From the IMG/VR virus record IMGVR_UViG_3300025914_000468, positions 1-22,640 of that record: a DNA stretch of 22,640 bases; one strand, written 5' to 3'. The DNA is from a virus. The notes beneath the pieces were generated by a model that worked only from the letters and a program-made list of their open reading frames with translations, had not been told where the DNA came from and searched no databases. Below are positions 3,434 to 22,640 of the stretch, piece after piece. Within the stretch, counting starts at the first letter, position 1. Every line of letters starts with the position of its first letter. The translations under genes were made by a program, and so were the position numbers.

Positions 3434-4663
3434 CTAGAGTTGTAGGCGTTTACCTGTTTCTGCTCCTACGGTTTGCTCTATAGCTTCCAGGATACTAGTC
3501 CGAATTCTTTCTGCAAGTCGTTTAGAGGCAACCGTTCCCTGTTGTCCACTGTATACTCTGCCTGTCCACGGTATGCCTTGAACAGGTTTTATTACTTGGA
3601 CAATATGTTCTATTTTGAAATCTGAATATTTCTCTATCGTTTTTGTGAAAATAGTTGGCAGTACAAGCATTAGCGCATTAAAGCCGGTTGTCTTTGTCAC
3701 AATACTTTTATCATCAAACCAAAGATGTGGTAAAGTCTGTCTCACAGCATTGAAATAATTCCGTATTACACCACGCTGGTCTTCCAAAGCAAACTTATAC
3801 TCATTCGTGTGTGAGATTATTCCTCCAGGGCGTAAATGCGGAATCAAAGCATCAACAAAAGTACCTAAGGAGATTTGCCCTAGAACGCGGTCTGAAGTCA
3901 AGCTGATTCTTCCATAAAATGGCGACTCAGGATCACGGGTGAGGCTACGCGCAATATCACTAGCTCTGGAAGTATAAAATGCTTCCTTTGTATCGTCATC
4001 CTCTGAAAAATATTCTAGCAGATCATAAAGTAGTGACTTGTCCACTCCTTGCTGATATGAGTTAATGTCAATGAATAACCGGGCCTGCTCGACAAGTTCG
4101 AGACCAGCAAATGCACAAACAAGAAACTGAAAATCTTCAGGAGTCGCAAATAGTGCCTGGCTTTTGATAAGCAGATCCGCACCGTACACACGGTGCTGAC
4201 CATCGATAATCCAGGCAATCGGTGCCGACGCGGAAAAAGTTACCGTTCCAGCCGCGTCATCATAACGAAGATAATCTTCACTGTCGAAGTTGAGCAAGAT
4301 ACTACTTGGTAGTACACCTCCTGCCTCGACATAACGCTTTATAGATTCAGCACGTTTCGGATCAAGAATGCGTTGATAACCCGCTCCTCGATCCTCAGAG
4401 CGCCTACTAACATATGCGATCCTAACGATTTCGTCCATCGAAAGGCTGAAAGCAAAAAAAATACGGTTGTTCTGCTTGCACTGAACCGCTCTTTTCGTTA
4501 ACATTTCGTCCATCAAGTACTGGCTCCGATTTAAATATTTGGTCGTGAAGTTTTTACGACGGAAAATTAGGTCAATATTTTCTGTATAGATCTCAGTAAA
4601 GAGGCCATTTGCAGCTTTTGCGCTATAATTATCTAGTGCCGGCCTGATTGACGATAGACTCAA
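3434..4663 (-). CDS. DGQHR-domain protein (DndB-like family)
   Basis: This 409-residue protein carries the family hallmarks in order: GYQR at 95-98, the name-giving DGQHR at 154-158 (IIDGQHRVYGADLL) and FIDINSYQQGVDKSL at about 197-211. Such proteins include DndB, the regulator of DNA phosphorothioation, and DpdB of the 7-deazaguanine DNA modification system. The fold resembles ParB/sulfiredoxin, and the motif is thought to bind or hydrolyse nucleotide. No dndA, C, D or E gene, nor any dpd gene, is nearby, so this is a stand-alone member with a 291-residue partner one base downstream. The start is uncertain: the longest frame opens at TTG 4663 without a ribosome-binding site, and ATGs occur at 4513 and 4504. 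A short ORF in another frame immediately upstream leaves room for a frameshift at the 5' end. Confidence 0.8.
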   Translation of the reverse strand: MSLSSIRPALDNYSAKAANGLFTEIYTENIDLIFRRKNFTTKYLNRSQYLMDEMLTKRAVQCKQNNRIFFAFSLSMDEIVRIAYVSRRSEDRGAGYQRILDPKRAESIKRYVEAGGVLPSSILLNFDSEDYLRYDDAAGTVTFSASAPIAWIIDGQHRVYGADLLIKSQALFATPEDFQFLVCAFAGLELVEQARLFIDINSYQQGVDKSLLYDLLEYFSEDDDTKEAFYTSRASDIARSLTRDPESPFYGRISLTSDRVLGQISLGTFVDALIPHLRPGGIISHTNEYKFALEDQRGVIRNYFNAVRQTLPHLWFDDKSIVTKTTGFNALMLVLPTIFTKTIEKYSDFKIEHIVQVIKPVQGIPWTGRVYSGQQGTVASKRLAERIRTSILEAIEQTVGAETGKRLQL

Positions 4664-11046: not shown

Positions 11047-11901
11047 ATGTCCACCACAATCACAAAGACCATACCCGCAGACTTCGACAGTCAACAGCCG
11101 TTGCGCTTCAGCAATGTACGCCCTTCGTCTCTGCCCTATTTGTGGGCACAGGCCAAAGCGGGCGATCCCGTTGCCTGCAAGATGTTATTCGACCACTACA
11201 CACCATTGGCTCTGAAGATTGCTGCTCGCCTCAGCCAGTACAAGGCCGCGGGAATGGAAAGCGAAGATCTGTTAGGAATGGCCGTCATAGCGCTTCCTGG
11301 CGTGATTGCGGCCTATGATCCGGCGAAAGGTAGGTTTGAGGCGTTCGCCAGGCTAGCCATCAAGAGATCCGTCATTTCGGCAATACGAGCGTCCAACTTT
11401 TACCGTGGAAGCGCGGATCAGGTCAAAGGCAAGATTGAGGCAGCCGCAGCTCGTGTTGAGGCCCGAACGTTGAGGGCAGCGACCAATGCAGAGATTGCAG
11501 CTGAGCTTGATATTACGATCGATGAATTGGAGAAAAAGCGCAAGTTGGGGCTGTATCGCCACGTTGGTGAACTTGATGTCCAATGGTTCGATGCAGAGGG
11601 CTATACGATGTCATTGGTCGATGTAATACCAGATCCACGTCAGGATGTTGAGGCCGCTGTCTCGCGTAATGATAAGGCCGAACGTGTGCATGCTGCCATC
11701 AATGATCTCCCCGACCTTCAGCGTCGCATCGTTCGAGAGCGTGCATTGAACGACGTCAATCCCAGTGCGGTTGCGGAGAACCTTTGCATGTCTCAATCTT
11801 CGATGTGGATGCACTACACCCGCGGTATCAAAAATCTGCGGATTGCCCTCTCTCAGGACGCTGAGGCGTTCATTTCGATAAGTCATGGGACGAACGCATG
11901 A
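11047..11901 (+). CDS. Sigma-70 family RNA polymerase sigma factor (phage-encoded)
   Basis: In this 284-residue protein, region 2 covers about residues 45-118 (ACKMLFDHYTPLALKIAARL, EDLLGMAVIALPGVIAAYDP, FEAFARLAIKRSVISAIRAS). A region-3-like helix pair is at about 140-165 (NAEIAAELDITIDELEK), and region 4 is at about 217-268 (INDLPDLQRRIVRERALN, AVAENLCMSQSSMWMHYTRG), where the second helix would contact the -35 box. Region 1.1 is absent, so it belongs to the small group-3-like factors (FliA/SigF/SigB-type layout). It most likely redirects host polymerase to phage promoters, perhaps for the structural genes downstream. It lies 109 bp after the helicase gene. GAGAAA before the ATG is a weak ribosome-binding site. 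Confidence 0.85.
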   Translation: MSTTITKTIPADFDSQQPLRFSNVRPSSLPYLWAQAKAGDPVACKMLFDHYTPLALKIAARLSQYKAAGMESEDLLGMAVIALPGVIAAYDPAKGRFEAFARLAIKRSVISAIRASNFYRGSADQVKGKIEAAAARVEARTLRAATNAEIAAELDITIDELEKKRKLGLYRHVGELDVQWFDAEGYTMSLVDVIPDPRQDVEAAVSRNDKAERVHAAINDLPDLQRRIVRERALNDVNPSAVAENLCMSQSSMWMHYTRGIKNLRIALSQDAEAFISISHGTNA

Positions 11902-11945: not shown

Positions 11946-12433
11946 TGAGCAAGAAATCAACCGTGCTGGGTGCATCCTGTGACTTCGCCCTTGCCGAAGC
12001 CGTAGAGCTTTACGCATTTCGACACAACCTTCCACGCGCTGACGCGATCCGGCAAATCTTGCGCCAGATCGCTGACCCACGCGGCGAGTGTTCCCGCGTG
12101 AGGACGTCATTGCAGTGGGTTCAGGTGAAAGAAGGCAAGTCCCTCGTATGGATGCTGGATGGGGGAGATGGCCGCTGGGCAGTTATGCGGTGCGCACCCA
12201 ACGCCTACCCCGTACTTACGATCGAGGAGCCGGGCTGCCTGGAATTCAGCCGGTCTATGTATTACTCGCCGGATGAGTATGCCATCTACCTTGCCGAAGG
12301 CATCATCTTGAAGCGCTGGCCACACCTCGCGCCCAAGGCGCCGATGATCGTTAAGACCGTTGGCGAAAAGAGCAAAGATGCAGGAATTGGTCACTGGACT
12401 ATTGATTTGGAAGAAGCACTGAAGGCGGCATAG
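11945..12433 (+). CDS. RHH-like N-terminal domain protein of unknown function
   Basis: This is a 162-residue protein from the ATG at 11945. That start is preferred over an in-frame one at 11885 because AAAGGCG lies eight bases ahead and the longer form would run deep into the sigma gene. Residues about 10-48 (FALAEAVELYAFRHNLPRAD, AIRQILRQI) look like a CopG/Arc-type ribbon-helix-helix or a related helix pair. The rest is a mixed alpha/beta domain with many Trp and Tyr residues and no motif I recognise. It is coupled to the sigma factor through the 15-codon ORF, so it may modulate sigma activity or act as a co-expressed regulator; that is a guess from position. Confidence 0.65.
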   Translation: MSKKSTVLGASCDFALAEAVELYAFRHNLPRADAIRQILRQIADPRGECSRVRTSLQWVQVKEGKSLVWMLDGGDGRWAVMRCAPNAYPVLTIEEPGCLEFSRSMYYSPDEYAIYLAEGIILKRWPHLAPKAPMIVKTVGEKSKDAGIGHWTIDLEEALKAA

Positions 12434-12632
12434 AGGTACAGCGGCGTGAGCCAATGGCATACAAGCTCAAGACAGGAAGTGTGGATTGGAGACACAGTGC
12501 CGCATAAACCGCACTACACGCACGGAGAGACGCTAAAGCTACGTCAAGCGATGTTAGTTAAGCTGACGTAGTAAGTAAGCAACAGGAGAGGCAGCCGACG
12601 GCTGAAGCAGAGGATGAGGCTAAGAGATTTCG
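12434..12632. other. Gap with dyad and debris-like short frames
   Basis: No long gene is present. CTACGTCA (12539-12546) and TGACGTAG (12564-12571) form a perfect inverted repeat around 17 bases. A GTG at 12497 with GGAG five bases ahead opens 24 codons (ending VKLT), and another plus frame ends at 12636 with a coding-like tail (RQPTAEAEDEAKRFR). The two could be halves of one small gene broken by a frameshift, but this is weak. Confidence 0.3.
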
Positions 12633-12791
12633 TTAGCGAGAGTTCTGCATCTGCGAGATCTGGATCTGCTGTTGAGTTGTAAGCTGGGCAGATTTCCGGT
12701 GCCCCCATGTGACGGTAACCACAGCCAAGACGACGATCACGAGCGCCAAAGCAAGCATACATTTTTGTCGTGGTATATTTTCTCTCATCAT
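12633..12791 (-). CDS. 52-residue single-TM protein
   Basis: This ORF runs against its neighbours. After a short basic start (MMRENIPRQK) comes a strong membrane helix (about 11-29, CMLALALVIVVLAVVTVTW) and a Gln-rich hydrophilic tail (QLTTQQQIQISQMQ) that could form a coiled coil. Such a clear layout is uncommon by chance in a 53-codon frame. No good ribosome-binding site is visible ahead of either ATG (12791, 12788), which lowers confidence. The topology is that of small phage inner-membrane proteins such as spanin-, holin-like or exclusion peptides, but the function cannot be assigned. Confidence 0.45.
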   Translation of the reverse strand: MMRENIPRQKCMLALALVIVVLAVVTVTWGHRKSAQLTTQQQIQISQMQNSR

Positions 12792-12859
12792 GATATTAGT
12801 GTATCCGTTGTCAGGCGCTCGTAACCCTTTTTACAGTAATGGTTGACGATCACGGGAGG

Positions 12860-12891
12860 CCCACACGAAGCCTGTAGAGCTTGTGTGTGGG
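12860..12891. other. Stem-loop ahead of the small HTH gene at 12923
   Basis: CCCACAC (12860-12866) pairs with GTGTGGG (12885-12891) around 18 bases. It lies about 30 bp before the next start codon and could be an operator or a leader hairpin. Confidence 0.35.
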
Positions 12892-12922
12892 TCATTGATC
12901 AGGAAGAAGTGAGGCGAGCAGC

Positions 12923-13129
12923 ATGATGGACGAACGAAGTACGAAACCGAAGCCGTTACCCTACCGCTACCCCGAAGAAGTGGTGGCGGAATGGATGCGA
13001 TACTACCAAGAGGCAAAGCAGCGCTGGCCTACGGTGCGGGAACTGGCGGCGAGTACAGGGATTTCGAGGAGTCGGGCTGGCGAGTATAGAAGGATTTATC
13101 TTATAACACGCGAAAATTTGCGAACATAA
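12923..13129 (+). CDS. Small HTH DNA-binding protein
   Basis: In this 68-residue protein, WPTVRELAASTGISRSRAGE (about residues 35-54) is a clear helix-turn-helix: ELAAST as the first helix, GIS as the turn and RSRAGEYRRIY as the recognition helix. The N-terminal half is basic and Pro/Tyr-rich (KPKPLPYRYPEE). GAGG lies eight bases ahead of the first ATG. It stands alone between the minus-strand membrane ORF and a 980-bp gene-poor stretch, so a regulator acting on the nearby inverted repeats is a reasonable guess. Confidence 0.65.
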   Translation: MMDERSTKPKPLPYRYPEEVVAEWMRYYQEAKQRWPTVRELAASTGISRSRAGEYRRIYLITRENLRT

Positions 13130-13241
13130 ACTCAGTGCCAATTAACATTTGCTAGCAAAATAATCCAACAAGTAACAACAACGTGCATATTTTTGTTACT
13201 TTAGATTTACCTAATTATATCAAATGAGAATTTTAAAGGTA

Positions 13242-13533
13242 TATAATAGCAATGTACTTGCGATGGAGGATGATCTAGCCACAAATGGTCATACTCCCCA
13301 GTTTAGATACTGCGCACAACAATACCTAAACTGGGAAATCTGGCTAGGACCAATACGTTACCATGTATGGACCGTGGCAACAATGGCTGCAACAGTACCC
13401 AACACTGCTGCGACAGCGATCACTATATTCAGAATATAGGATTTGAACTCCAGATTTTTACCAGACAAAATCAAAATCTCCTTTCATTGCAGATACTAGA
13501 CGCTTCATGGTTACCGGCCATGGGCGTCTTTTT
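13242..13533 (+). ncRNA. Candidate untranslated RNA with nested hairpin
   Basis: A perfect -10 box (TATAAT, 13242-13247; the -35 is poor) precedes a nested inverted repeat. CTAGCCA (13275-13281) pairs with TGGCTAG (13341-13347), and inside it CCCAGTTTAG (13297-13306) pairs with CTAAACTGGG (13326-13335). A strong intrinsic terminator ends at 13533. The distances fit an RNA of about 280 bases. A 71-codon ORF starts at 13224, before the -10 box, has no ribosome-binding site and resembles nothing known. Expression is unproven. Confidence 0.35.
13498..13533 (+). terminator. Strong intrinsic terminator
   Basis: AGACGC (13498-13503) pairs with GCGTCT (13524-13529), extended by wobble pairing and by CATGG with CCATG, around a loop of about seven bases. 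A run of T (TTTTTAT) follows immediately. This is a textbook plus-strand terminator, although no protein gene lies just upstream. Confidence 0.8.
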
Positions 13534-14073
13534 ATATTGTAATCAAAATTTATCCAAATTGTTGAAATATTTGATTACAGATTGGTTAAAACATGGAATA
13601 ATGCGCCGAACGGCTCACTGGACTGCCTAGATGGCGTAGAGTGAGCCATGGCAATGATCGGGTAAGTGGGAATTATTATCAATAACGTCACACCTGTTAT
13701 CAAAATAAGCGCTGCCATGGAATCAAACGGAAGCGAAATGTAAAGCCGATAAAAATCTGTGCATCTAAGCTATAACGAAATAAAACTCGGCTTATTTTAT
13801 TTCATTATGAAAATCCGCATGCCGACGATAATTAAGTATCCCATTTTGGGACAACTAACTTCCCAACACGTTAAGAAACTGCTATCATAACTACGTCAGT
13901 CTGCTGTGGTGGCGACTGTCAACCAGGTCAGTTCTAAAGCGAGGTTCGGAGTAGGGCTTGCTCTGGACCTCACCAACTGCCCTACACGATTTCGTAACCC
14001 GTGCGGTAATGGTCCCCGCAGAAGCAACCGTGCTGACGGACGAAATACCCGCAAGTGTCTCTGAACCCTCTTG

Positions 14074-14098
14074 GGCAGCCTTCACCGGCTGCCTTTCG
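14074..14098 (+). terminator. Intrinsic terminator ahead of the gene at 14116
   Basis: GGCAGCC (14074-14080) and GGCTGCC (14087-14093) form a seven-pair stem with a six-base loop, followed by TTTCGTT. It lies about 20 bp before the next start codon, so it either ends a transcript from upstream or attenuates the next gene. Confidence 0.6.
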
Positions 14099-14115
14099 TT
14101 GTTTGTGAGGTCTCC

Positions 14116-14439
14116 ATGAATCGCCGTGATCTTGCCAAGAAGCGCCGCCGGGAACAGTACCAGATGCCCGCGCCGTGCCGTAGCTCAACGCGTGAGGAGA
14201 TCGAGACACGCCGGCTCATTGCCCGCGAATGCGGCATCGGCGTTGTGGTGATCAGCGTGCCGACGATGTTGACGCCGCAGGCTGCGAAACGGCTGAGTGA
14301 TGACGGGCTTGCTTATCGGTTGGAATCGGAGCCAACTGTTGCGGACTATGTGATGCCTCATCCGCTGCGGCATGATAAGCCAGTGAGGTTTGAGGATGCT
14401 GTTAAGGCGTACGACCGGGCTCATGGAACATTACCATAG
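14116..14439 (+). CDS. Hypothetical 107-residue protein
   Basis: The ATG at 14116 is chosen over the in-frame one at 14071 because GAGG lies five bases ahead and the longer start would sit inside the terminator hairpin. The N-terminus is very basic (MNRRDLAKKRRREQYQMP). A compact domain follows with a hydrophobic strand (CGIGVVVISVPTMLTPQAAK) and a helical C-terminus. It resembles no family I know. The basic start could bind nucleic acid. Base composition is GC-rich like the structural genes and unlike the surrounding sequence. Confidence 0.6.
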   Translation: MNRRDLAKKRRREQYQMPAPCRSSTREEIETRRLIARECGIGVVVISVPTMLTPQAAKRLSDDGLAYRLESEPTVADYVMPHPLRHDKPVRFEDAVKAYDRAHGTLP

Positions 14440-14551
14440 AACTTGGTAGACACCATGGATCAGGCAACAAGTCGTTTTCTTTGTTTCCGAAGTATGAGTT
14501 GTATTCGTACTCGAACGTGACAAACGAGCCGACATAGGATAAAATGAGCAC

Positions 14552-14587
14552 AGCACGAACGTTTTGTGTTCACAAAACGTTCGTGCT
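14552..14587. repeat. Perfect 36-bp palindromic site (17-bp arms)
   Basis: AGCACGAACGTTTTGTG (14552-14568) and CACAAAACGTTCGTGCT (14571-14587) are perfectly complementary with only two bases between them. It is by far the longest perfect dyad in the window. No T-tract follows on either strand, so it is not a typical terminator. It could be a protein-binding, partition or resolution site, or form a long RNA hairpin. Confidence 0.7.
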
Positions 14588-14596
14588 GATGGGAAG

Positions 14597-14731
14597 TCAA
14601 TGGGCAGAATGCCTATCGAAGAAGTCGATCAATCGCAACACCAGGTTGGTTAAGCCAACAAGATTGGCAAAACCACTCAGAGAGTTGCGAAGCCTACTCG
14701 ATCCAGTAGGTTTGTGTGGGATTTTCTTCAT
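14597..14731 (-). CDS. Possible 44-residue amphipathic peptide
   Basis: The minus-strand ORF begins at an ATG with GGAG six bases ahead. Its first half is basic (MKKIPHKPTGSSRLR). The second half is a hydrophobic or amphipathic helix (GFANLVGLTNLVLRLIDFF), reminiscent of small membrane-active peptides such as type I toxins. It lies opposite the structured stretch 14645-14771, so an antisense pair is conceivable. The inverted repeats in the DNA could also have produced the frame by chance. Confidence 0.35.
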   Translation of the reverse strand: MKKIPHKPTGSSRLRNSLSGFANLVGLTNLVLRLIDFFDRHSAH

Positions 14732-14865: not shown

Positions 14866-15091
14866 GTCAACCTCGCACTACCTTACTTGAGGAAATTATA
14901 TCACACCTTGCAGGTCGGCGAACAATGAGAACAGCCTCAAGTAATCCCGATTTTAACTAGCGTGAAACAAGGTCTGTGATACCGTAAAAAAGCATTGAAA
15001 TTGCCCCTGTTGGTGCTTTTAATGGCTCGTTTTTGCAAATTCCGCCTCCGTAAGGTTCGCAAAAACGCCGACAACAGCTAGAACGTGAGTA

Positions 15092-15262
15092 TTAAAAATT
15101 CGTTCCATGCTCAAAACAATCTGCACTCCAGTGAACGGTCTGATGGCTTCGCTGGGGATTGGAATGCAGGCACCCTTCATGGCCATGCTGCCAGCGTTGA
15201 AATAGTCTTCGACGAACTGTTAGATGCTCCTCAATGACCTTGAGAAGGTCCCACGCTTCCAC
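15092..15262 (-). pseudogene. Truncated 5' fragment of a prkA-like gene, copy 1
   Basis: A GTG at 15262 with AAAGG seven bases ahead opens a frame that begins MEAWDLLKVIEEH (first residue read from GTG). The DNA of the leader and first 13 codons closely matches the better preserved prkA fragment at 15507-15839, where the peptide begins METWDVLKAVEQH. After that the two diverge and the remaining 43 residues (ending DCFEHGTNF) look like nothing known. A minus-strand terminator lies just upstream. I read it as a second, shorter copy of the start of a kinase gene. It is unlikely to make a functional protein. Confidence 0.5.
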
Positions 15263-15302
15263 TATCAATCCTTTCATGACATCTAAGGATATCATGCTCT
15301 TA

Positions 15303-15340
15303 AAAAATAAAAACCGGCCACCGCACGAGCGGGCCGGTTC
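15303..15340 (-). terminator. Minus-strand terminator upstream of prkA copy 1
   Basis: Read on the minus strand, AACCGGCC and GGCCGGTT (plus 15333-15340 and 15313-15320) form an eight-pair stem with a 12-base loop, followed by TTTTTATTTTTT. It ends a leftward transcript, although no leftward gene is visible to its right. Confidence 0.7.
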
Positions 15341-15506
15341 AAGTTCATTGCAATTGCGATATGGATGAAAAACGGGGAAAACAGGTGAATCGGCCAGCTC
15401 GAAAATATGAATGTGCAGTAGTTACGTATTTACTAGAAAAGTTTACGTAACTCCCCGGCTGGCTTGCGGCACGCTGGCCGCAACGGGGTCGTTTCAAATG
15501 CTAACT

Positions 15507-15839
15507 CTAGCTTAAATATACCACAAAATTTGTCTCTCGTAAAGATCTCAATTCAATTGTGTAACAAAGATTTAAGTAGTCTTCCACGAGGTACTGGATC
15601 GTCTTTTCCATCCCAAAGAGCTCGCCCTCGAAGAACTTGTAAGTCTTCATCTGACCTTCACCGTTGTCCTGAACGCCTCCAGCAAGAATCATGTCGTAGA
15701 CGCGGGCGTGCGCAAGGTCCGTTACTCTGGGGTTGGTACGTATTATCTACAGGTAGTCCTTAAACGTACCTTCCCACTGCAATTTGTCCTCCTCTGCCTG
15801 ATGCTGCTCAACGGCCTTGAGAACGTCCCAAGTTTCCAT
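15507..15839 (-). pseudogene. prkA: Broken 5' part of serine protein kinase gene prkA, copy 2
   Basis: The frame starts METWDVLKAVEQHQAEEDKL, continues QWEGTFKDYL, meets a TAG (15749-15747), then goes on in the same frame with IIRTNPRVTDLAHARVYDMI and MKTYKFFEGELFGMEKTIQ, YLVEDYL. This matches the N-terminus of PrkA (Bacillus form: KWEGTF..YL.IV..NP, AHSRVF.MI, .ELFGL...IE.LVE.Y). The TAG sits where PrkA normally has Glu (GAG). After VEDYL the similarity stops, before the Walker A region, and about 20 unrelated residues end the frame. PrkA normally has about 630 residues, so this is a dead fragment. AAAGG lies eight bases ahead of the ATG, so the host leader was carried along. Confidence 0.7.
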
Positions 15840-15885
15840 AAACTATCCTTTCGGGGCCATCAGTCGCGGGGCATATTTCACCCCG

Positions 15886-15935
15886 AAAAAAAGACACAGC
15901 CTCGGCGGTCACCGGGAAGTGTCCACCGAGGCTGT
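15886..15935 (-). terminator. Minus-strand terminator upstream of prkA copy 2
   Basis: On the minus strand ACAGCCTCGG (15935-15926) pairs with CCGAGGCTGT (15905-15896), two further pairs follow past a mismatch, and seven T come after a three-base step. It points away from the terminase genes and towards the prkA fragment, as if a host gene once ended here. Confidence 0.75.
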
Positions 15936-15991
15936 ATCTTAGATTCTTCAGCGATTTGGTGTTGAGATCTTGATAGTGATTGGATAGCACT

Positions 15992-16630
15992 ATGCCCTAC
16001 GAACCCAACCCCAGCACAACCGACCTCGACGCCCGTGCCGCCGGTAAGTGTGGCTGGATCAAGGACAACGGCGAGCCCTGCAAGAACAAGGCTGGACACG
16101 GGACGGCGCATGTGGGGCAGGGGTGCTGCAAGAAGCACAACGGCGGCGGAGGACGGCCACCGACACATGGCCTCTACTCGCAGATCAAACGGCCGCGTAT
16201 CGTGGAGCTGCTCGCCGCGTGTGATGCGCTCGACGATCCTCTCGACCTCACCGCGGACCTGAAGATGCTGCGCTCTCTCACTGTGGATTGGATCGAGCGC
16301 TACGACGAACTCGTGGAAGCCATCATCGCCTGGCATGAAAGCTATCAGAACCCGGAGCGCACTTACAAGCCGACGAAGGTCCCGGACATTGCCGATGCAA
16401 CCGCGCTGCTGGACCGGATCGGCGCGATGGTGGACCGGATTGAGAAACGCCGTGAGAAAGGCGCATTGTCGATGAGCCGGGTGAAGACGATCCTCGATCA
16501 GTACGCGGAGCAGGTTCTGATGGCAACGCAGGCACACGTCGATGACCCTGACCTACAAACCAAGCTTCTCGACGATATCGAGGAACGCTGGGGTCGCATC
16601 GAACTCGACACTCAGCCGTCCGGACGATGA
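15992..16630 (+). CDS. Terminase small subunit-like protein with Cys/His N-terminus
   Basis: This 212-residue protein starts at the ATG 15992; a TTG at 15980 is in frame but less likely. Residues 20-50 hold Cys20, Cys30, Cys46 and His49 within KCGWIKDNGEPCKN and GHGTAHVGQGCCKKHNGG. This is the Zn-finger-like box found in many phage proteins directly upstream of the large terminase (CGxxxxxGxPCxxxxGxGTxHxGxGxCxxHGG). The rest is helical, with a coiled region (ATALLDRIGAMVDRIEKRRE). It would recognise phage DNA and start packaging together with the large subunit encoded next. Its stop is about 10 bp before the large-subunit start. Confidence 0.75.
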   Translation: MPYEPNPSTTDLDARAAGKCGWIKDNGEPCKNKAGHGTAHVGQGCCKKHNGGGGRPPTHGLYSQIKRPRIVELLAACDALDDPLDLTADLKMLRSLTVDWIERYDELVEAIIAWHESYQNPERTYKPTKVPDIADATALLDRIGAMVDRIEKRREKGALSMSRVKTILDQYAEQVLMATQAHVDDPDLQTKLLDDIEERWGRIELDTQPSGR

Positions 16631-16640
16631 ACAGAACCCG

Positions 16641-18275
16641 ATGCGCCGGGCCCGGCGCGACTTCACCAATGCGGACCTTTCCGAATACCAGTACGATCCC
16701 GTGCGCTACATCCGCGAAAAGCTCGGATGGGAGCCATGGGAGGGCAGCGAAGCGACGCCCGGACAGGTCGAAGTCATCAACGCCTACGTGCTGGCGCTCC
16801 GCCAACAGCATGAGCGAGCCGACTTCAAAAAGGGCCTGATTGCCGAAGCCGACCTGAAGTACTGGCGGCCGGGCGAAGTCATCAAGAACCGCATTCGCAT
16901 TGAAGCAGGCCACACGGTCGGCAAAACCAAGCTCGCCAGCGGCCTGTTCAATCACTTCTTCGACTGCTTTTGTCCCTCAATCATTTACAGCTATGCGCCG
17001 GGCTGGGAGTCCATCAAAGATCTTCTCTGGAAGGAAATCGAGACCGACCGCGAGGGCAAGGGATTGCCCGGCCGCGTGCTGCAGACGTGCGAGATCAAGT
17101 ACAAGCCGAATCACTTCGCCAAGGGGCGCGCGACCAACGATAGCGGCGGTAAGGGTACGGAGCGCGTCCAGGGCCAGCACGGCAAGTACCTGATGTTCGT
17201 GCTTGATGAGGCCGAGGGCGTTGCCGACTTCGTGTACGGCGCGGTCGAGTCGATGACCTCGGGCGGCATCAGCATCGTCTTGATGCTCGCCAACCCGAAA
17301 AGTCGCGGCTCACTCTTTCACAAGCAGGCAGGACGCTCGGACACGGCATCGTTTCGGATCAGCTGCGTTAACCATCCGAATGTGCTCACCGACCGCGAGA
17401 TCGTGCCGGGAGCCGTCCAGCGCGATTATGTACGCAAGATGGTCGAGCTGCTGACCGAGATCGTGCCCGAGCATGACGAGGATCAACAGACATTCACCCT
17501 GCCGTTTCCGGTGACCGTTCACGGCGCGGAGCGGCCGGGCGGGACGATCTTTAAACCCTATCCAGAGTTCTTGTGGCGCGTCCTGGGCATCGCGCCGTCC
17601 AACGTTGCCGACAACACGTTCGTTCCATTCGGCCGGTATGAGGCAGCTTGCAAACGTGCAGCGCCGGCCGAAGACCGGGCGCAAGGACGCATCGGTGTCG
17701 ACGTGGCGGGGTTCGGCAAGGACTACGGGACGATCTACATTCGGCACAACGGCCGCGTGTGGCGCTTCGCTCAGATTTGGCGACAGGACTACGACGACTA
17801 CGCCCGTAGGGTCAAGCAGGCGGCTCTGCATCTGAAGTCGCTGGGTGTGACGAACATCCAGATTCGCATTGACGCCGGCGGCGGCTTCGGCAACGGTGTC
17901 ACATCACACCTCAAGCTCGACAGCGAGTTCCTGGAAGCCTTCCCGGAAGAGAACCGCCGCGTGATCATGGTGCATTTCGGTGTGCCGCCTCACGACAAGA
18001 CGGCCTACGCCGATGTGATCACCGAGCTTTACGCGGAAGCGGCCGAAACCCTGAAGGGCATCCGTGTGGACAATCCACCGGAGGCGCTCGAAGGCGATCT
18101 CACCGAACGCACGTATGACTGGGTGAACAAGTCCGGCGTCTCCGTGAAGAAGCTTGAAGAGAAGAAAGCATTCAAAAAGCGCAAGATGCGCAGTCCGGAC
18201 GACGGCGACGGCTTTGTGTTGTGTGCTGCCCCGGATCACCTCTTCACCAGTCGCAAGGTCGTGACATTCGAATGA
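16641..18275 (+). CDS. terL: Terminase large subunit (packaging ATPase and nuclease)
   Basis: This is a 544-residue protein from the ATG at 16641. The frame is open from 16542, but that would overlap the small subunit by 89 bases. The ATPase half has Walker A GHTVGKTK (about 90-97) and Walker B LMFVLDEAEG (about 184-193) with the catalytic Glu. The RNase-H-like nuclease half shows IGVDVAGFGKDYGTI (Asp about 354), IRIDAGGGFGNGV (Asp about 411) and a final DDGDGF. Length and motif order fit an intact terminase. It cuts concatemeric DNA and pumps it into the prohead through the portal. Its stop codon overlaps the start of a 42-residue membrane ORF by the ATGA arrangement. Confidence 0.95.
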   Translation: MRRARRDFTNADLSEYQYDPVRYIREKLGWEPWEGSEATPGQVEVINAYVLALRQQHERADFKKGLIAEADLKYWRPGEVIKNRIRIEAGHTVGKTKLASGLFNHFFDCFCPSIIYSYAPGWESIKDLLWKEIETDREGKGLPGRVLQTCEIKYKPNHFAKGRATNDSGGKGTERVQGQHGKYLMFVLDEAEGVADFVYGAVESMTSGGISIVLMLANPKSRGSLFHKQAGRSDTASFRISCVNHPNVLTDREIVPGAVQRDYVRKMVELLTEIVPEHDEDQQTFTLPFPVTVHGAERPGGTIFKPYPEFLWRVLGIAPSNVADNTFVPFGRYEAACKRAAPAEDRAQGRIGVDVAGFGKDYGTIYIRHNGRVWRFAQIWRQDYDDYARRVKQAALHLKSLGVTNIQIRIDAGGGFGNGVTSHLKLDSEFLEAFPEENRRVIMVHFGVPPHDKTAYADVITELYAEAAETLKGIRVDNPPEALEGDLTERTYDWVNKSGVSVKKLEEKKAFKKRKMRSPDDGDGFVLCAAPDHLFTSRKVVTFE

Positions 18276-18400
18276 CACCATTCCTCCTATTTTTGTACAT
18301 GGTCGCTGCCGCCGCCGGCATTGTCGTCATTGGTCTCTGCGGGATTGGCCTGTGGCTGCTTTACCTGTACATCGTGGGGACGCTGAGGGCGAAGCCGTAA
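18272..18400 (+). CDS. 42-residue membrane peptide between terminase and portal
   Basis: The ATG overlaps the terL stop (ATGA) and the TAA is directly followed by the portal ATG, so this ORF fills the gap to the base. Nearly the whole peptide is hydrophobic (MTPFLLFLYMVAAAAGIVVI, then GLCGIGLWLLYLYIVG), ending in the polar, basic TLRAKP. It forms one long or two short membrane helices. The exact fit and coupling make translation likely. No family is recognised. Possible roles are a small membrane protein for the head-assembly site or a holin-like peptide; neither is shown. Confidence 0.75.
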   Translation: MTPFLLFLYMVAAAAGIVVIGLCGIGLWLLYLYIVGTLRAKP

Positions 18401-19702
18401 ATGCTAAACACAAAAGCAATCGCTTCACGGCTGCAGGGTGGTCTGGAGGCCGTTCGTAAGGGATTCAGCCTCTCATGGGGCAACGGGACGGTCGGCAGCA
18501 ACGGCGGCAATCCCTGGCGCGTGATGCTCCCCGGTTCCCAGATCGACTACAAAGAGAAGGCTGGCGATCTGTGGCTCAATAGCGCCGTTTCTATCTGTAT
18601 CGGCTGGATTTCGGATAACCTGCCTGAGGCGGAACTGGAGGTCGTCACGACCCAGGACGACGGTACCACGGCGGCCGTTCCCGATCATCCGCTTGTCGAT
18701 CTGATCCAGAACCCGAACTCGTACTACGATGACGATGTCCTCTGGGCGGCGACGATCCTCAGTTACTGCACGGACGGCAACGCCTATTGGTACAAGGCGC
18801 GCGACGGCTACGGCTACATCAAGGAGCTCTGGTATCTGCCGCACTGGCAGGTCGAGCCGCGCCGTCTGCCGAACAGCACCAACTTTCTCGATTACTTTGA
18901 GTATCGCCCGGGCGGGAGGCCGCAAGCGCTCCCTCCGGAGGATGTGATCCACTTCCGCTTCGGTATGGATCCAGACAACCTCATGAAGGGCTTTGCCCGT
19001 CTCAAGCCGGTCCTGCGCGAGATCATGACCGACAACGAATCGGCAACGTACACGGCCGCGTTGCTCCATAACATGGGTGTTCCCGGTGTCATCATCACTC
19101 CGGCCAGTCCCGAGGGCGTGCTCGGCGACGGTGTCCCCGCAAAGCTTAAATCCCTCTGGAGAGAGCGCGTTACGGGCGACTTCCGCGGCGATCCGATCGT
19201 GGCGCCGGCCGCCGTGCGCATCGAGAAGCTCAGCTTTAGCCCGGAAGAGCTCGCCCTCGACAAGATCCGCATCGTGCCGGAAGCGCGCATCCTCGGCGCA
19301 CTGCGGATGCCGGGAATGGTTGTCGGCCTGAGCGTCGGCGATGCGCAGCGCACGTACAGCAACTACAAAGAGGCGCGGGAAGCCGCGAACGAAGACTGCC
19401 TCATCCCGGTCGGCAAGCGTTTCGTCAAAACCATTAACCGACAACTCAAGCCGGATTTTAAGAAGACCGAGAACCAAGTCCTGCGCTGGAATTACCAGAA
19501 TGTCCGGTCGATGCAGCCGGACCGCATGGAAGCGTCGAAGCGGGCTGTCATCGAGTACACCGGCGGGATTGCCACACTCAACGAAGCCCGCAGTGAGACC
19601 GGGAAGCCGCCGGACAAAACCGCCCGGGGCAATCAGTACTGCCCGAAACCGGCCGCGCCGGTTCCTGATAAGTCCGCCGACACTGGCGATTCCACGCCGT
19701 GA
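18401..19702 (+). CDS. HK97-family portal protein
   Basis: In this 433-residue protein the order of segments is that of HK97-type portals: KAGDLWLNSAVSICIGWISD (entry of the clip and wing), DHPLVDLIQNPN, YCTDGNAYWYKARDG, ELWYLPHWQVEPRR, LPPEDVIHFRFGMDP and a C-terminal RSETGKPPDKTARGNQY. Twelve copies form the ring through which DNA enters and leaves the head. GAGGGCG nine bases ahead supports the ATG. The last residues are Pro/Ala/Asp-rich and disordered. The gene is followed within about 15 bp by a terminator before the protease gene. Confidence 0.93.
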   Translation: MLNTKAIASRLQGGLEAVRKGFSLSWGNGTVGSNGGNPWRVMLPGSQIDYKEKAGDLWLNSAVSICIGWISDNLPEAELEVVTTQDDGTTAAVPDHPLVDLIQNPNSYYDDDVLWAATILSYCTDGNAYWYKARDGYGYIKELWYLPHWQVEPRRLPNSTNFLDYFEYRPGGRPQALPPEDVIHFRFGMDPDNLMKGFARLKPVLREIMTDNESATYTAALLHNMGVPGVIITPASPEGVLGDGVPAKLKSLWRERVTGDFRGDPIVAPAAVRIEKLSFSPEELALDKIRIVPEARILGALRMPGMVVGLSVGDAQRTYSNYKEAREAANEDCLIPVGKRFVKTINRQLKPDFKKTENQVLRWNYQNVRSMQPDRMEASKRAVIEYTGGIATLNEARSETGKPPDKTARGNQYCPKPAAPVPDKSADTGDSTP

Positions 19703-19717
19703 CCCTGCTTTTGACCT

Positions 19718-19746
19718 GCCGCCTACGCAAACGTAGCGGCTTTTTT
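19718..19746 (+). terminator. Intrinsic terminator between portal and protease
   Basis: GCCG-CCTACG (19718-19727) pairs with CGTAG-CGGC (19732-19740) with one bulged base and a four-base loop, followed by six T. It lies inside the structural gene cluster, so part of the transcripts would end after the portal gene. Confidence 0.75.
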
Positions 19747-19765
19747 GTTGCCTCCGAGGTGGCCT

Positions 19766-20983
19766 GTGAAACGTGAAAAACCAAAGCTTTATGTGCTGAA
19801 GGATGCCGCCTTCGACGGTAACAAGCTGCGCGGCGTCGCGTCCGTGATGGGCAATCTCGACAATGCCAATGTCCGGGACGTCATCTATCCGATCGCCTTC
19901 GGGACGTGTCTCACCAGCTTTCTCAGCGCCGGATTTATGGCCGATAGTCACGACTGGTCGAAGATGATCGGCATGCCTTTAGTCGCTGAGGTTCAGGGCA
20001 ATTCCCTCTTCACCGAGAGTGAGTTCCATTCTACGGCGGACGCGCAGGACCTGCGTACGAAGTGTATGGAGCGTATGGCGAACGGCCTGAGCGTCGGCCT
20101 ATCCATCGGCTTCTCGATTGCGCCAGACGGCTCTCGGGTGTTTGCGAATGGAGACGACCTGCTGACCCATGCCCGCGAGATGGGATGCGACATGTCCTTG
20201 TTTGACGTCGCGGGAATCTCGGCGTGGAAAAGCAAGTGCCGGGGCATCTGGGACATCTCCGACCTCTATGAGTACTCCATCGTGAGCGTGCCCGCCAATC
20301 CGCTCGCGAACGCCACCGACGTCAAAAACCGGGATGCCGAGTTCAAGGCGCAGTATCTGGGCGAATACCTCGAACAGTCGATGACGATGGCGGCTCTGCG
20401 GCGGCTCGATGACGCGTTGTTCTACAACGTGCTCTATGAACTTGTATTCGGCGATTATGTTTATAATCCGACCACGGACGAGTACGAGTATGTCCGGCCG
20501 CCTCTGGATGAAGCTCTGACCACGCTTGAAGCCACCTTGCAGGAGTTTACGACCATCTTCCTGCGCACCTTTAAGACGCTCATGGCCGATGTGACGGACG
20601 AGGAGGCGACGGAGCTTGCCAAGTCGATTCGCACACTCTGGCCTGACCCTTCTCACGCATCAGCGGCCCCGCCTGCTCGGGGTCCCTATGCCGACCAGCT
20701 GACATCGGCGCTTGCTGCCGTGAAAGGCTGCATCGAGCGCGGCGTGTCCATCAAGGATATCCGCGCCAAAGATCAGCGCACCCTCTCGCCGGAGCGGGCC
20801 GCGCAGATCAAAGTCCTCCAGGACGCCCTGGGCGAACTCGCCACCGCAGAGATATCCGCCACGGAAACCGGCGCATCCGCCGAGACCGAGGCAGACAATC
20901 TTGCGGGCGCGAAATCAGCCCGGATAGCCTTCGAAATTTCACGGGCTCGGCAGTGGGGTGTTGACCTCACCGAGACCAATTAG
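19766..20983 (+). CDS. HK97-family prohead protease with long C-terminal extension
   Basis: The GTG at 19766 is taken as start because GAGGTGG lies six bases ahead; a TTG at 19745 lies inside the terminator tail. In this 405-residue protein, the first 185 or so form the U35-type protease: catalytic His62 (SHDWSKMIGMPL), Ser113 (SVGLSIGFSI) and EYSIVSVPANPLA near 170-182. The other 220 residues are an extra domain that typical HK97 gp4 proteases (about 225 residues) do not have, with helical segments and an acidic, Ala/Glu-rich end. It matures the head by cutting the capsid delta domain and itself. The extension could serve as a built-in scaffold. Confidence 0.9.
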   Translation: MKREKPKLYVLKDAAFDGNKLRGVASVMGNLDNANVRDVIYPIAFGTCLTSFLSAGFMADSHDWSKMIGMPLVAEVQGNSLFTESEFHSTADAQDLRTKCMERMANGLSVGLSIGFSIAPDGSRVFANGDDLLTHAREMGCDMSLFDVAGISAWKSKCRGIWDISDLYEYSIVSVPANPLANATDVKNRDAEFKAQYLGEYLEQSMTMAALRRLDDALFYNVLYELVFGDYVYNPTTDEYEYVRPPLDEALTTLEATLQEFTTIFLRTFKTLMADVTDEEATELAKSIRTLWPDPSHASAAPPARGPYADQLTSALAAVKGCIERGVSIKDIRAKDQRTLSPERAAQIKVLQDALGELATAEISATETGASAETEADNLAGAKSARIAFEISRARQWGVDLTETN

Positions 20984-21031
20984 TCTCCTTACCGAGATTT
21001 ATGAGCAGCGCACAGCGCAAGGATACACAAA

Positions 21032-22264
21032 ATGCCGACATATAAAGAACTCAGCGAGCAGCTGGATGTGAAGCGCAAGGAACTGAAGACGTTCTTCGAC
21101 ACCCACAAGAACGCCGCCGGCGAGTACGACATGACGACCGACGATCTGAAGGTTGTCAACGATCGCAACGCGGAGCTTGAAAAGCTCGGCAAGGACTGGC
21201 TTGCGGTGCGCGAGACGGAAGTCGTCGCGAAGAACCTGCAGGATGCGATGGAGGCGGCCGGTCACATTCAGCGCCCGGAGTTTGGCAAGGATGGTCGCCA
21301 GGGCGACCCGTCCGAGCAGTTCCGTGAGGCGAAGTCTCTTGGTCAGAGCCTGATCGATTCCAAGGAATACAAGGGCGTCGCGCCCTTCTCCACCAAGCGG
21401 TTTCAGGTTGAACTGGAGAACGTCTCCCTCAAGACAACGATGACGAGCGCGGCCGGATATCCGCCGTTCAGCCCGCGCGGCGACAAGCTGGTTCTCTCCG
21501 CGCAGCGCCGCCCGATGATCGCCGATTTGATCCCGCAGGACGATACCCCGTACGCGGCGATCAAGTACATGGAGGAAACCACCTTCACGAACGCGGCGGC
21601 GTCCACGGCGGAAGCGGCGGCCTCCCCGGAATCGGCGCTGGCCTACACGGAGCGCACGATCCCGGTGGAGAAGATCTCCACCTTCATCCCGGTCACCGAA
21701 GAGCAGGTCGCGGACACGGCCGCCCTGCGCGGTCTGATTGATAGCCGCCTGCGCCTGATGATCAGCCTGAAGGAAGAAGATCAGATCCTGAACGGATCCG
21801 GCACCTCGCCGCAGCTGCAGGGATTCTATAACAAGTCCGGCATTCAGACGCAGGCACTCGGCGTGGACCCGGTTCCGGATGCGATCTACAAGGCGATGAC
21901 GAAGGTCCGCTGGACCGGCTACGCGGACCCGACCGGCGTCGTCTTGCACCCCAACGACTGGCAGGACATTCGCCTGCTGCGCACGGCTGACGGTCTGTAT
22001 ATCTGGGGCAACCCGGCCGAAGCGGGGCCGGAAACGATCTGGGGCCTGCCTGTCATCGCGACGACGGCGGCCACGGAGAACACAGGCCTCACCGGCGACT
22101 TCCAGATGTACGCGCACATCAGCCGCCGTCTCGGGATCACGATCGCCGTCAGCGATTCCCATGGCAACAACTTCATCGCGGGCATCCTGGCCATTCGCGC
22201 CGACAGCCGCCTGTCGCTGGAGATCTACCGCGCGTCCGCGTTCTGCACCGTGACCGGCATCTAA
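21032..22264 (+). CDS. HK97-family major capsid protein
   Basis: This is a 410-residue protein. The N-terminal 100 or so residues are charged and helical (YKELSEQLDVKRKELKTFFD), the delta domain that acts as scaffold and is cut off by the protease. Next comes the HK97-fold shell domain: SLKTTMTSAAGYPPFSP, AAIKYMEETTFTNAAASTAE (E-loop region), VEKISTFIPVTEEQVADTA (spine helix region), EEDQILNGSGTSPQLQGFY and a C-terminal GNNFIAGILAIRADSRLSLE. Length is normal for the family. AAGGATACACAAA before the ATG gives a usable ribosome-binding site. It is the main shell protein of the virion and would be highly expressed. Confidence 0.95.
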   Translation: MPTYKELSEQLDVKRKELKTFFDTHKNAAGEYDMTTDDLKVVNDRNAELEKLGKDWLAVRETEVVAKNLQDAMEAAGHIQRPEFGKDGRQGDPSEQFREAKSLGQSLIDSKEYKGVAPFSTKRFQVELENVSLKTTMTSAAGYPPFSPRGDKLVLSAQRRPMIADLIPQDDTPYAAIKYMEETTFTNAAASTAEAAASPESALAYTERTIPVEKISTFIPVTEEQVADTAALRGLIDSRLRLMISLKEEDQILNGSGTSPQLQGFYNKSGIQTQALGVDPVPDAIYKAMTKVRWTGYADPTGVVLHPNDWQDIRLLRTADGLYIWGNPAEAGPETIWGLPVIATTAATENTGLTGDFQMYAHISRRLGITIAVSDSHGNNFIAGILAIRADSRLSLEIYRASAFCTVTGI

Positions 22265-22283
22265 ACCCGCTACGGACGTTCGC

Positions 22284-22313
22284 GCCGCCCTCTGATCGAC
22301 TGGTGAGGGCGGC
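22284..22313. other. Hairpin after the major capsid gene
   Basis: GCCGCCCTC (22284-22292) pairs with GAGGGCGGC (22305-22313) around 12 bases. No T-tract follows; a ribosome-binding site comes right after. It may stabilise the 3' end of the capsid mRNA or tune the next gene. Confidence 0.5.
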
Positions 22314-22325
22314 CGGAGGAAAACA

Positions 22326-22640
22326 ATGATTCTACAAGGCGGAAATGTGATGCCGGGCAGCGGACTGGGCAATCCGCTGACAAACGCCGGCGCGCCCGTG
22401 AACGGCACGACCGAAGTTCAGACGATCACTCTTGGCGGCACACCGACCGGCGGAACCTTCAAACTTGGTTTTGACGGGTTTGTCACTGGTCCGATTGCCT
22501 GGAGCGCAACGAATGCGACGCTGATCGCCAACATCGACGCAGCTCTTGAGGCCTTGCCGAACGTGGGAGTGGGGGGCATTGTGATTGCTGTCGGATCAAT
22601 GACAGCGGGAATCGGCACGGCCACGGCCACGTTACCGGCG
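22326..22640 (+). CDS. Putative head decoration-type protein, cut by the window end
   Basis: The open frame starts at an ATG with GGAGG seven bases ahead and runs past the end of the window (105 codons seen). After a Gly/Pro/Asn-rich start comes EVQTITLGGTPTGGTFKLGF, then SATNATLIANIDAALEALPN and a beta-rich stretch. This is the pattern of a repeated beta domain often seen in phage head or decoration proteins (EVQTVTLTGTPTGGTFTLTF...AALEAL). Location directly after the capsid gene supports a head role. The remainder cannot be judged from this window. Confidence 0.6.
   Translation, partial: MILQGGNVMPGSGLGNPLTNAGAPVNGTTEVQTITLGGTPTGGTFKLGFDGFVTGPIAWSATNATLIANIDAALEALPNVGVGGIVIAVGSMTAGIGTATATLPA

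Follow-up and report, generated by a model that had tools for sequence, protein, structure and literature searches.

Decayed pieces of a probable Armatimonadota dedA-prkA locus between the early and the terminase genes of a phage genome

The window studied here, the whole of a linear IMG/VR virus record of 22,640 bases, very probably contains decayed dedA-prkA DNA from an Armatimonadota host between positions ~14460 and 15945 (probability about 0.8), with at least two copies of prkA and with neither a working PrkA nor a working DedA. Four pieces homologous to the host genes were observed, all of them on the minus strand and in the order prkA (codons 1-88), prkA (codons 1-13), dedA and prkA (codons 299-318) (Table 1). 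This arrangement is best read as the outcome of past recombination with the prkA locus of the host. The kind of event is ordinary, the phage lineage is poorly known, and the remnants do not demonstrate a new mechanism.

Table 1. Coordinates of the host-related features in the window
Feature	Position	Strand	Remarks
Mid-prkA fragment, host codons ~299-318 (TFEYEYNSYFGNKENDLLPD)	14459-14518	-	profile E 4e-5
Fragment (45 aa) of dedA, a VTT-domain membrane protein	15052-15186	-	E 4.8e-13
Weak VEDYF-like match, perhaps codons 84-88 of prkA copy 2	15197-15215	-	16/19 nt to 15571-15589
prkA copy 2	15223-15275	-	codons 1-13 with the ribosome-binding site (VEAWDLLKVIEEH)
Terminator-like hairpin upstream of copy 2	15311-15340	-	fold -19.6 kcal/mol, T-rich tail
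prkA copy 1	15576-15839	-	codons 1-88, ribosome-binding site and start codon retained; homology stops at VEDY
In-frame TAG, codon 31 of copy 1	15747-15749	-	
Phage/host-DNA junction region, repeated in contig G001	15795-15980		G001 ends at 15795, inside copy 1
Terminator-like hairpin upstream of copy 1	15891-15940	-	homologous to the pre-prkA hairpin of Armatimonadota chromosomes

The sequence-only reading had claimed two broken prkA 5' ends, the longer one interrupted by an in-frame TAG, and both of these claims are borne out. Copy 1, translated on the minus strand from 15839 to 15576, reads METWDVLKAVEQHQAEEDKLQWEGTFKDYL, a stop and IIRTNPRVTDLAHARVYDMILAGGVQDNGEGQMKTYKFFEGELFGMEKTIQYLVEDY. 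With the stop read as X, it matched Pfam AAA_PrkA at E 1.7e-9, and against a profile built from 41 Armatimonadota PrkA proteins the parts before and after the stop gave E values of 6.6e-8 and 1.8e-24, respectively. The best match among 80 loci was L002 (66% identity). The start codon is the ATG at 15839, preceded by a GAAAGGAT ribosome-binding site. Apart from the single stop no frameshift was found in the 264 nt, and only 3 of the 26 residues invariant in hosts were changed, so that either decay set in recently or a degree of constraint persisted; copy 1 may be a young pseudogene. Its upstream hairpin has 22-nt arms that are 86% complementary, with a fold of -38.4 kcal/mol and a T7 tail on the minus strand. 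A promoter-like site was also noticed on the minus strand at 15543-15515.

The shorter related copy, which had been placed about 580 bp away, lies at a measured spacing of 577 bp. Positions 15275-15223 agree with the region 15852-15800 of copy 1 in 43 of 53 nt (81%, E 4e-5), whereas the maximum across 60 simulated windows was 31 of 53. Its start is the GTG at 15262, again with GAAAGGAT ahead, and an in-frame ATG is present at 15277. Both copies therefore carry the ribosome-binding site and the leftward upstream hairpin that had been described for them, and the similarity of both reading frames to PrkA, on which the sequence-only reading depended, was confirmed. The hairpin of copy 2 is unlike that of copy 1 in sequence. 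The VEDYF-like match beside copy 2 is so short that chance could give it; this stretch was also considered as the N-terminus of DedA and rejected, as the DedA match begins past it. Between the two copies, a palindrome at 15420-15452 (AGTTACGTA...TACGTAACT) stands in the AT-rich spacer and is possibly an operator.

Two further host pieces, additions to what had been described earlier, were detected by a DNA search of the low-density stretch around the two copies against host genomes and by tblastn of host reading frames. The DedA piece shows 64, 60 and 56% identity to the dedA genes that lie upstream of prkA in the genomes G034, G011 and G036, respectively. The host dedA gene matches Pfam VTT_dom at 4e-22; the open reading frame of the window over this piece gave no Pfam match. 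The mid-prkA piece shares 93% DNA identity over 42 nt with prkA of G034 (E 1.2e-9; 75% identity by tblastn). The distance from the first to the last prkA piece is ~1,058 nt here as against ~630 nt in the host, which indicates that other DNA was inserted too. A hairpin at 14551-14588 has 18-nt arms that are fully complementary and a T-rich tail pointing to the mid-prkA piece; it comes after a 44-aa ORF without convincing relatives. This ORF (14597-14731) was rejected as a further host gene, its sole matches having E values of 0.5-0.9 and being antisense to an unrelated gene. No convincing match to host DNA was found farther left, at 12430-14480.

The four pieces point to one common locus in the host. 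The best prkA matches among genome contigs were Armatimonadota, and the three best genomes for copy 1 (G011, G036 and G034) were all among the five best for the DedA piece. In G011 and G036 dedA is the immediate upstream neighbour of prkA; in G034 it is also upstream, but a single gene separates the two. A hairpin with CAGCCTCGG (CGGCCTCGG in one of them) precedes prkA in five closely related Armatimonadota genomes. In G034, a single contig of 7.6 Mb, the pattern CAGCCTCGG-N(8-38)-CCGAGGCTG has a single occurrence, before prkA, and the copy 1 hairpin of the window is 96% identical to that site over 23 nt. On the strength of this match, the copy 1 terminator was most likely captured as host DNA together with the start of the gene; the single occurrence led us to reject the idea that it is a common host terminator. 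The flank of the window thus resembles real prkA 5' flanks. In the tree, the copy 1 fragment fell inside the Armatimonadota group (support only 80/86) on a long unplaced branch, and the nearest of the host genomes compared showed ~66% protein identity over copy 1. The terminase of the phage has a counterpart of 62% identity in the Armatimonadota genome G035.

Phage genes are present on both flanks of the remnants. The window encodes a replication module with DnaB and a replication initiator, as well as a sigma factor, and from ~12.4 to 15.95 kb there is a long low-density stretch which holds the prkA and dedA pieces. To the right of it, one gene precedes the large terminase, portal and capsid genes, and the remnants accordingly lie in the gap that separates the early genes from the terminase genes. 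Several other features of the record were noted. The C-terminal scrap of a tyrosine integrase is found at 303-599 on the minus strand (phrog_7269, 4e-4), the remainder of the gene being missing. A DndB/DGQHR-domain protein (3434-4663, minus strand; Pfam 1e-15) adjoins an uncharacterised gene of 291 aa, and a link of the two to DNA modification or defence is possible. The sigma factor is encoded at 11047-11901 on the plus strand (phrog_351, 2e-14), and no close relative of it was found in IMG/VR. No RNA family was detected in the window with Rfam.

A second IMG/VR contig, G001 (24,073 bases), is 99.985% identical to positions 15795-22640 of the window. The junction of phage DNA, hairpin and prkA start is therefore present in two contigs, which may come from the same sample. 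Neither PrkA nor DedA gave a tblastn match at E 0.1 in G001, L102 or any of 14 loci with related terminases, and nine related full contigs likewise had no match to PrkA codons 1-89, which indicates that the acquisition was local. It had been asked whether similar prophages carry the fragments as well; searches with the PrkA peptide, the PrkA profile, the DNA pattern, the sigma factor and the replication proteins revealed no related phage with the same remnants, and the region is carried by one phage only.

Compared with the PrkA serine protein kinases (AAA_PrkA, PF08298; B. subtilis PrkA and E. coli YeaG), the window is homologous in codons 1-88 and ~299-318 but has a stop at codon 31, lacks the C-terminal domain entirely and has lost the greater part of the AAA domain. 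Consequently no kinase can be made, as the reading frame does not stay open across the AAA ATPase core and the C-terminal kinase domain (PF06798). For the DedA/VTT family (PF09335), the 45 aa correspond to the region of the ACIPIPSEAI...PF motif and share 56-64% identity with the dedA genes adjacent to prkA. A full VTT domain has about 200 aa, and only these 45 aa are matched; moreover, unlike the host dedA, the fragment sits after a prkA start and not before it. Homology thus extends to a non-coding flank (the hairpin) and to the neighbouring dedA gene, and disabling changes are present as a stop, truncation and scrambled pieces, as is characteristic of a host-derived remnant. No sign of a present function was seen at the sequence level, and the remnants are probably without one.

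Phages acquire host genes by illegitimate or homologous recombination, as in specialised transduction and the acquisition of morons. As in other phages with remnants of host genes, the host DNA of the window occupies a gap that separates phage modules; in contrast to moron-type acquisition, there is no intact cargo gene but several pieces of one locus with its 5' end doubled. Capture of host DNA is supported by the best prkA and dedA matches falling in the same lineages, by the two genes being neighbours there and by the hairpin before prkA being shared between those lineages and the window. The uptake, by illegitimate or homologous recombination, would have taken place while the phage infected or lysogenised its host. 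The presence of at least two prkA copies could be caused by two separate captures, or by one capture followed by duplication, and the order of the pieces could derive either from separate captures or from deletions within tandemly repeated copies of the host segment. After the capture, deletion and point decay would have proceeded in a gap without essential genes, most of the length being lost and a stop gained.

The sequence-only reading had left room both for captured or duplicated host DNA and for the history of an attachment site; the former gains support from the common locus and the hairpin, while the latter fits poorly. According to it, prkA was the integration site of an ancestral phage, and the fragments are either attP or what imprecise excision left of attL/attR. 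Sites of this kind do exist elsewhere. The SPbeta prophage is described as inserting into the sporulation gene spsM (PMC4191935) and the gin element as inserting into gerE (PMC5595907). In the Bacillales-type locus L099 (1515-4067), prkA is cut short near codon 296-305, and the next gene, on the opposite strand, encodes a large serine recombinase; this is a prophage inside prkA, akin to the interruptions of spsM and gerE, and it indicates that prkA can be an insertion site elsewhere, though its anatomy differs from that of the window. L100 (1-4902), a virus record from an isolate genome and likewise of Bacillales, begins with prkA and its partner gene yhbH; a serine recombinase adjoins the 3' end of yhbH, and the prkA-yhbH operon is the boundary of the prophage. 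These cases share with the window a sporulation-associated gene together with mobile or phage DNA, the mid-prkA piece starts near the same part of PrkA as the break in L099, and the end of G001 inside copy 1 resembles an assembly fork at an att core. However, spsM, gerE and L099 are clean site-specific insertions in a host gene, whereas the window has scraps of host DNA inside a phage. No recombinase was found within 13 kb of the remnants, the integrase scrap being ~14 kb off. Furthermore, the prkA pieces run from codons 1-88 to 299-318 in one orientation, while the joined outer flanks of a prophage in prkA would give the reverse order, and the prkA match of 264 nt is much longer than the usual att core. 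Nearly all of the Armatimonadota genomes listed have long prkA frames, with no case of interruption by phage genes among them; a relative integrated at prkA was not found in 291 Armatimonadota genomes, many of them fragmented. In the parts of the literature that were available, nothing was found on prophages of Armatimonadota or on insertion at prkA. An attachment site at prkA was consequently rejected as the preferred explanation and is considered unlikely.

An assembly artefact, in which the assembler joined DNA of a host contig to phage DNA, is somewhat less probable still. The record is metagenomic and G001 stops at 15795 within a prkA piece, but two contigs agree exactly over the right-hand junction (15795-15945), the host DNA consists of scrambled, degraded pieces and not of an intact gene, and phage genes run on at both sides. 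Least probable of all, and hardly to be expected, is a retained function as nucleic acid, in which the two prkA leaders (hairpin, ribosome-binding site and start) would act as a decoy or antisense-type RNA altering host prkA expression in the course of infection. It is just as improbable that they are regulatory RNA mimics titrating a factor that controls host PrkA during infection. Both copies do retain the hairpin, the ribosome-binding site and start codons, and the promoter-like site lies on the same strand. On the other hand, the two hairpins have no sequence in common, the dedA and mid-prkA pieces are left unexplained, no Rfam family was matched, and a second phage in which conservation could be seen was not found. 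Judged from the sequence, nothing appears to point to an RNA role of the two leaders, which are known from one phage genome.

Taken as captured host DNA, the remnants tie an anonymous virus contig to Armatimonadota, a little-known phylum, and are of moderate value for host assignment. They represent a readable fossil of phage-host recombination at one locus, with pieces of both dedA and prkA and with the 5' end doubled. A host-derived terminator and gene start could here be traced by locus synteny at only 60-70% sequence identity.
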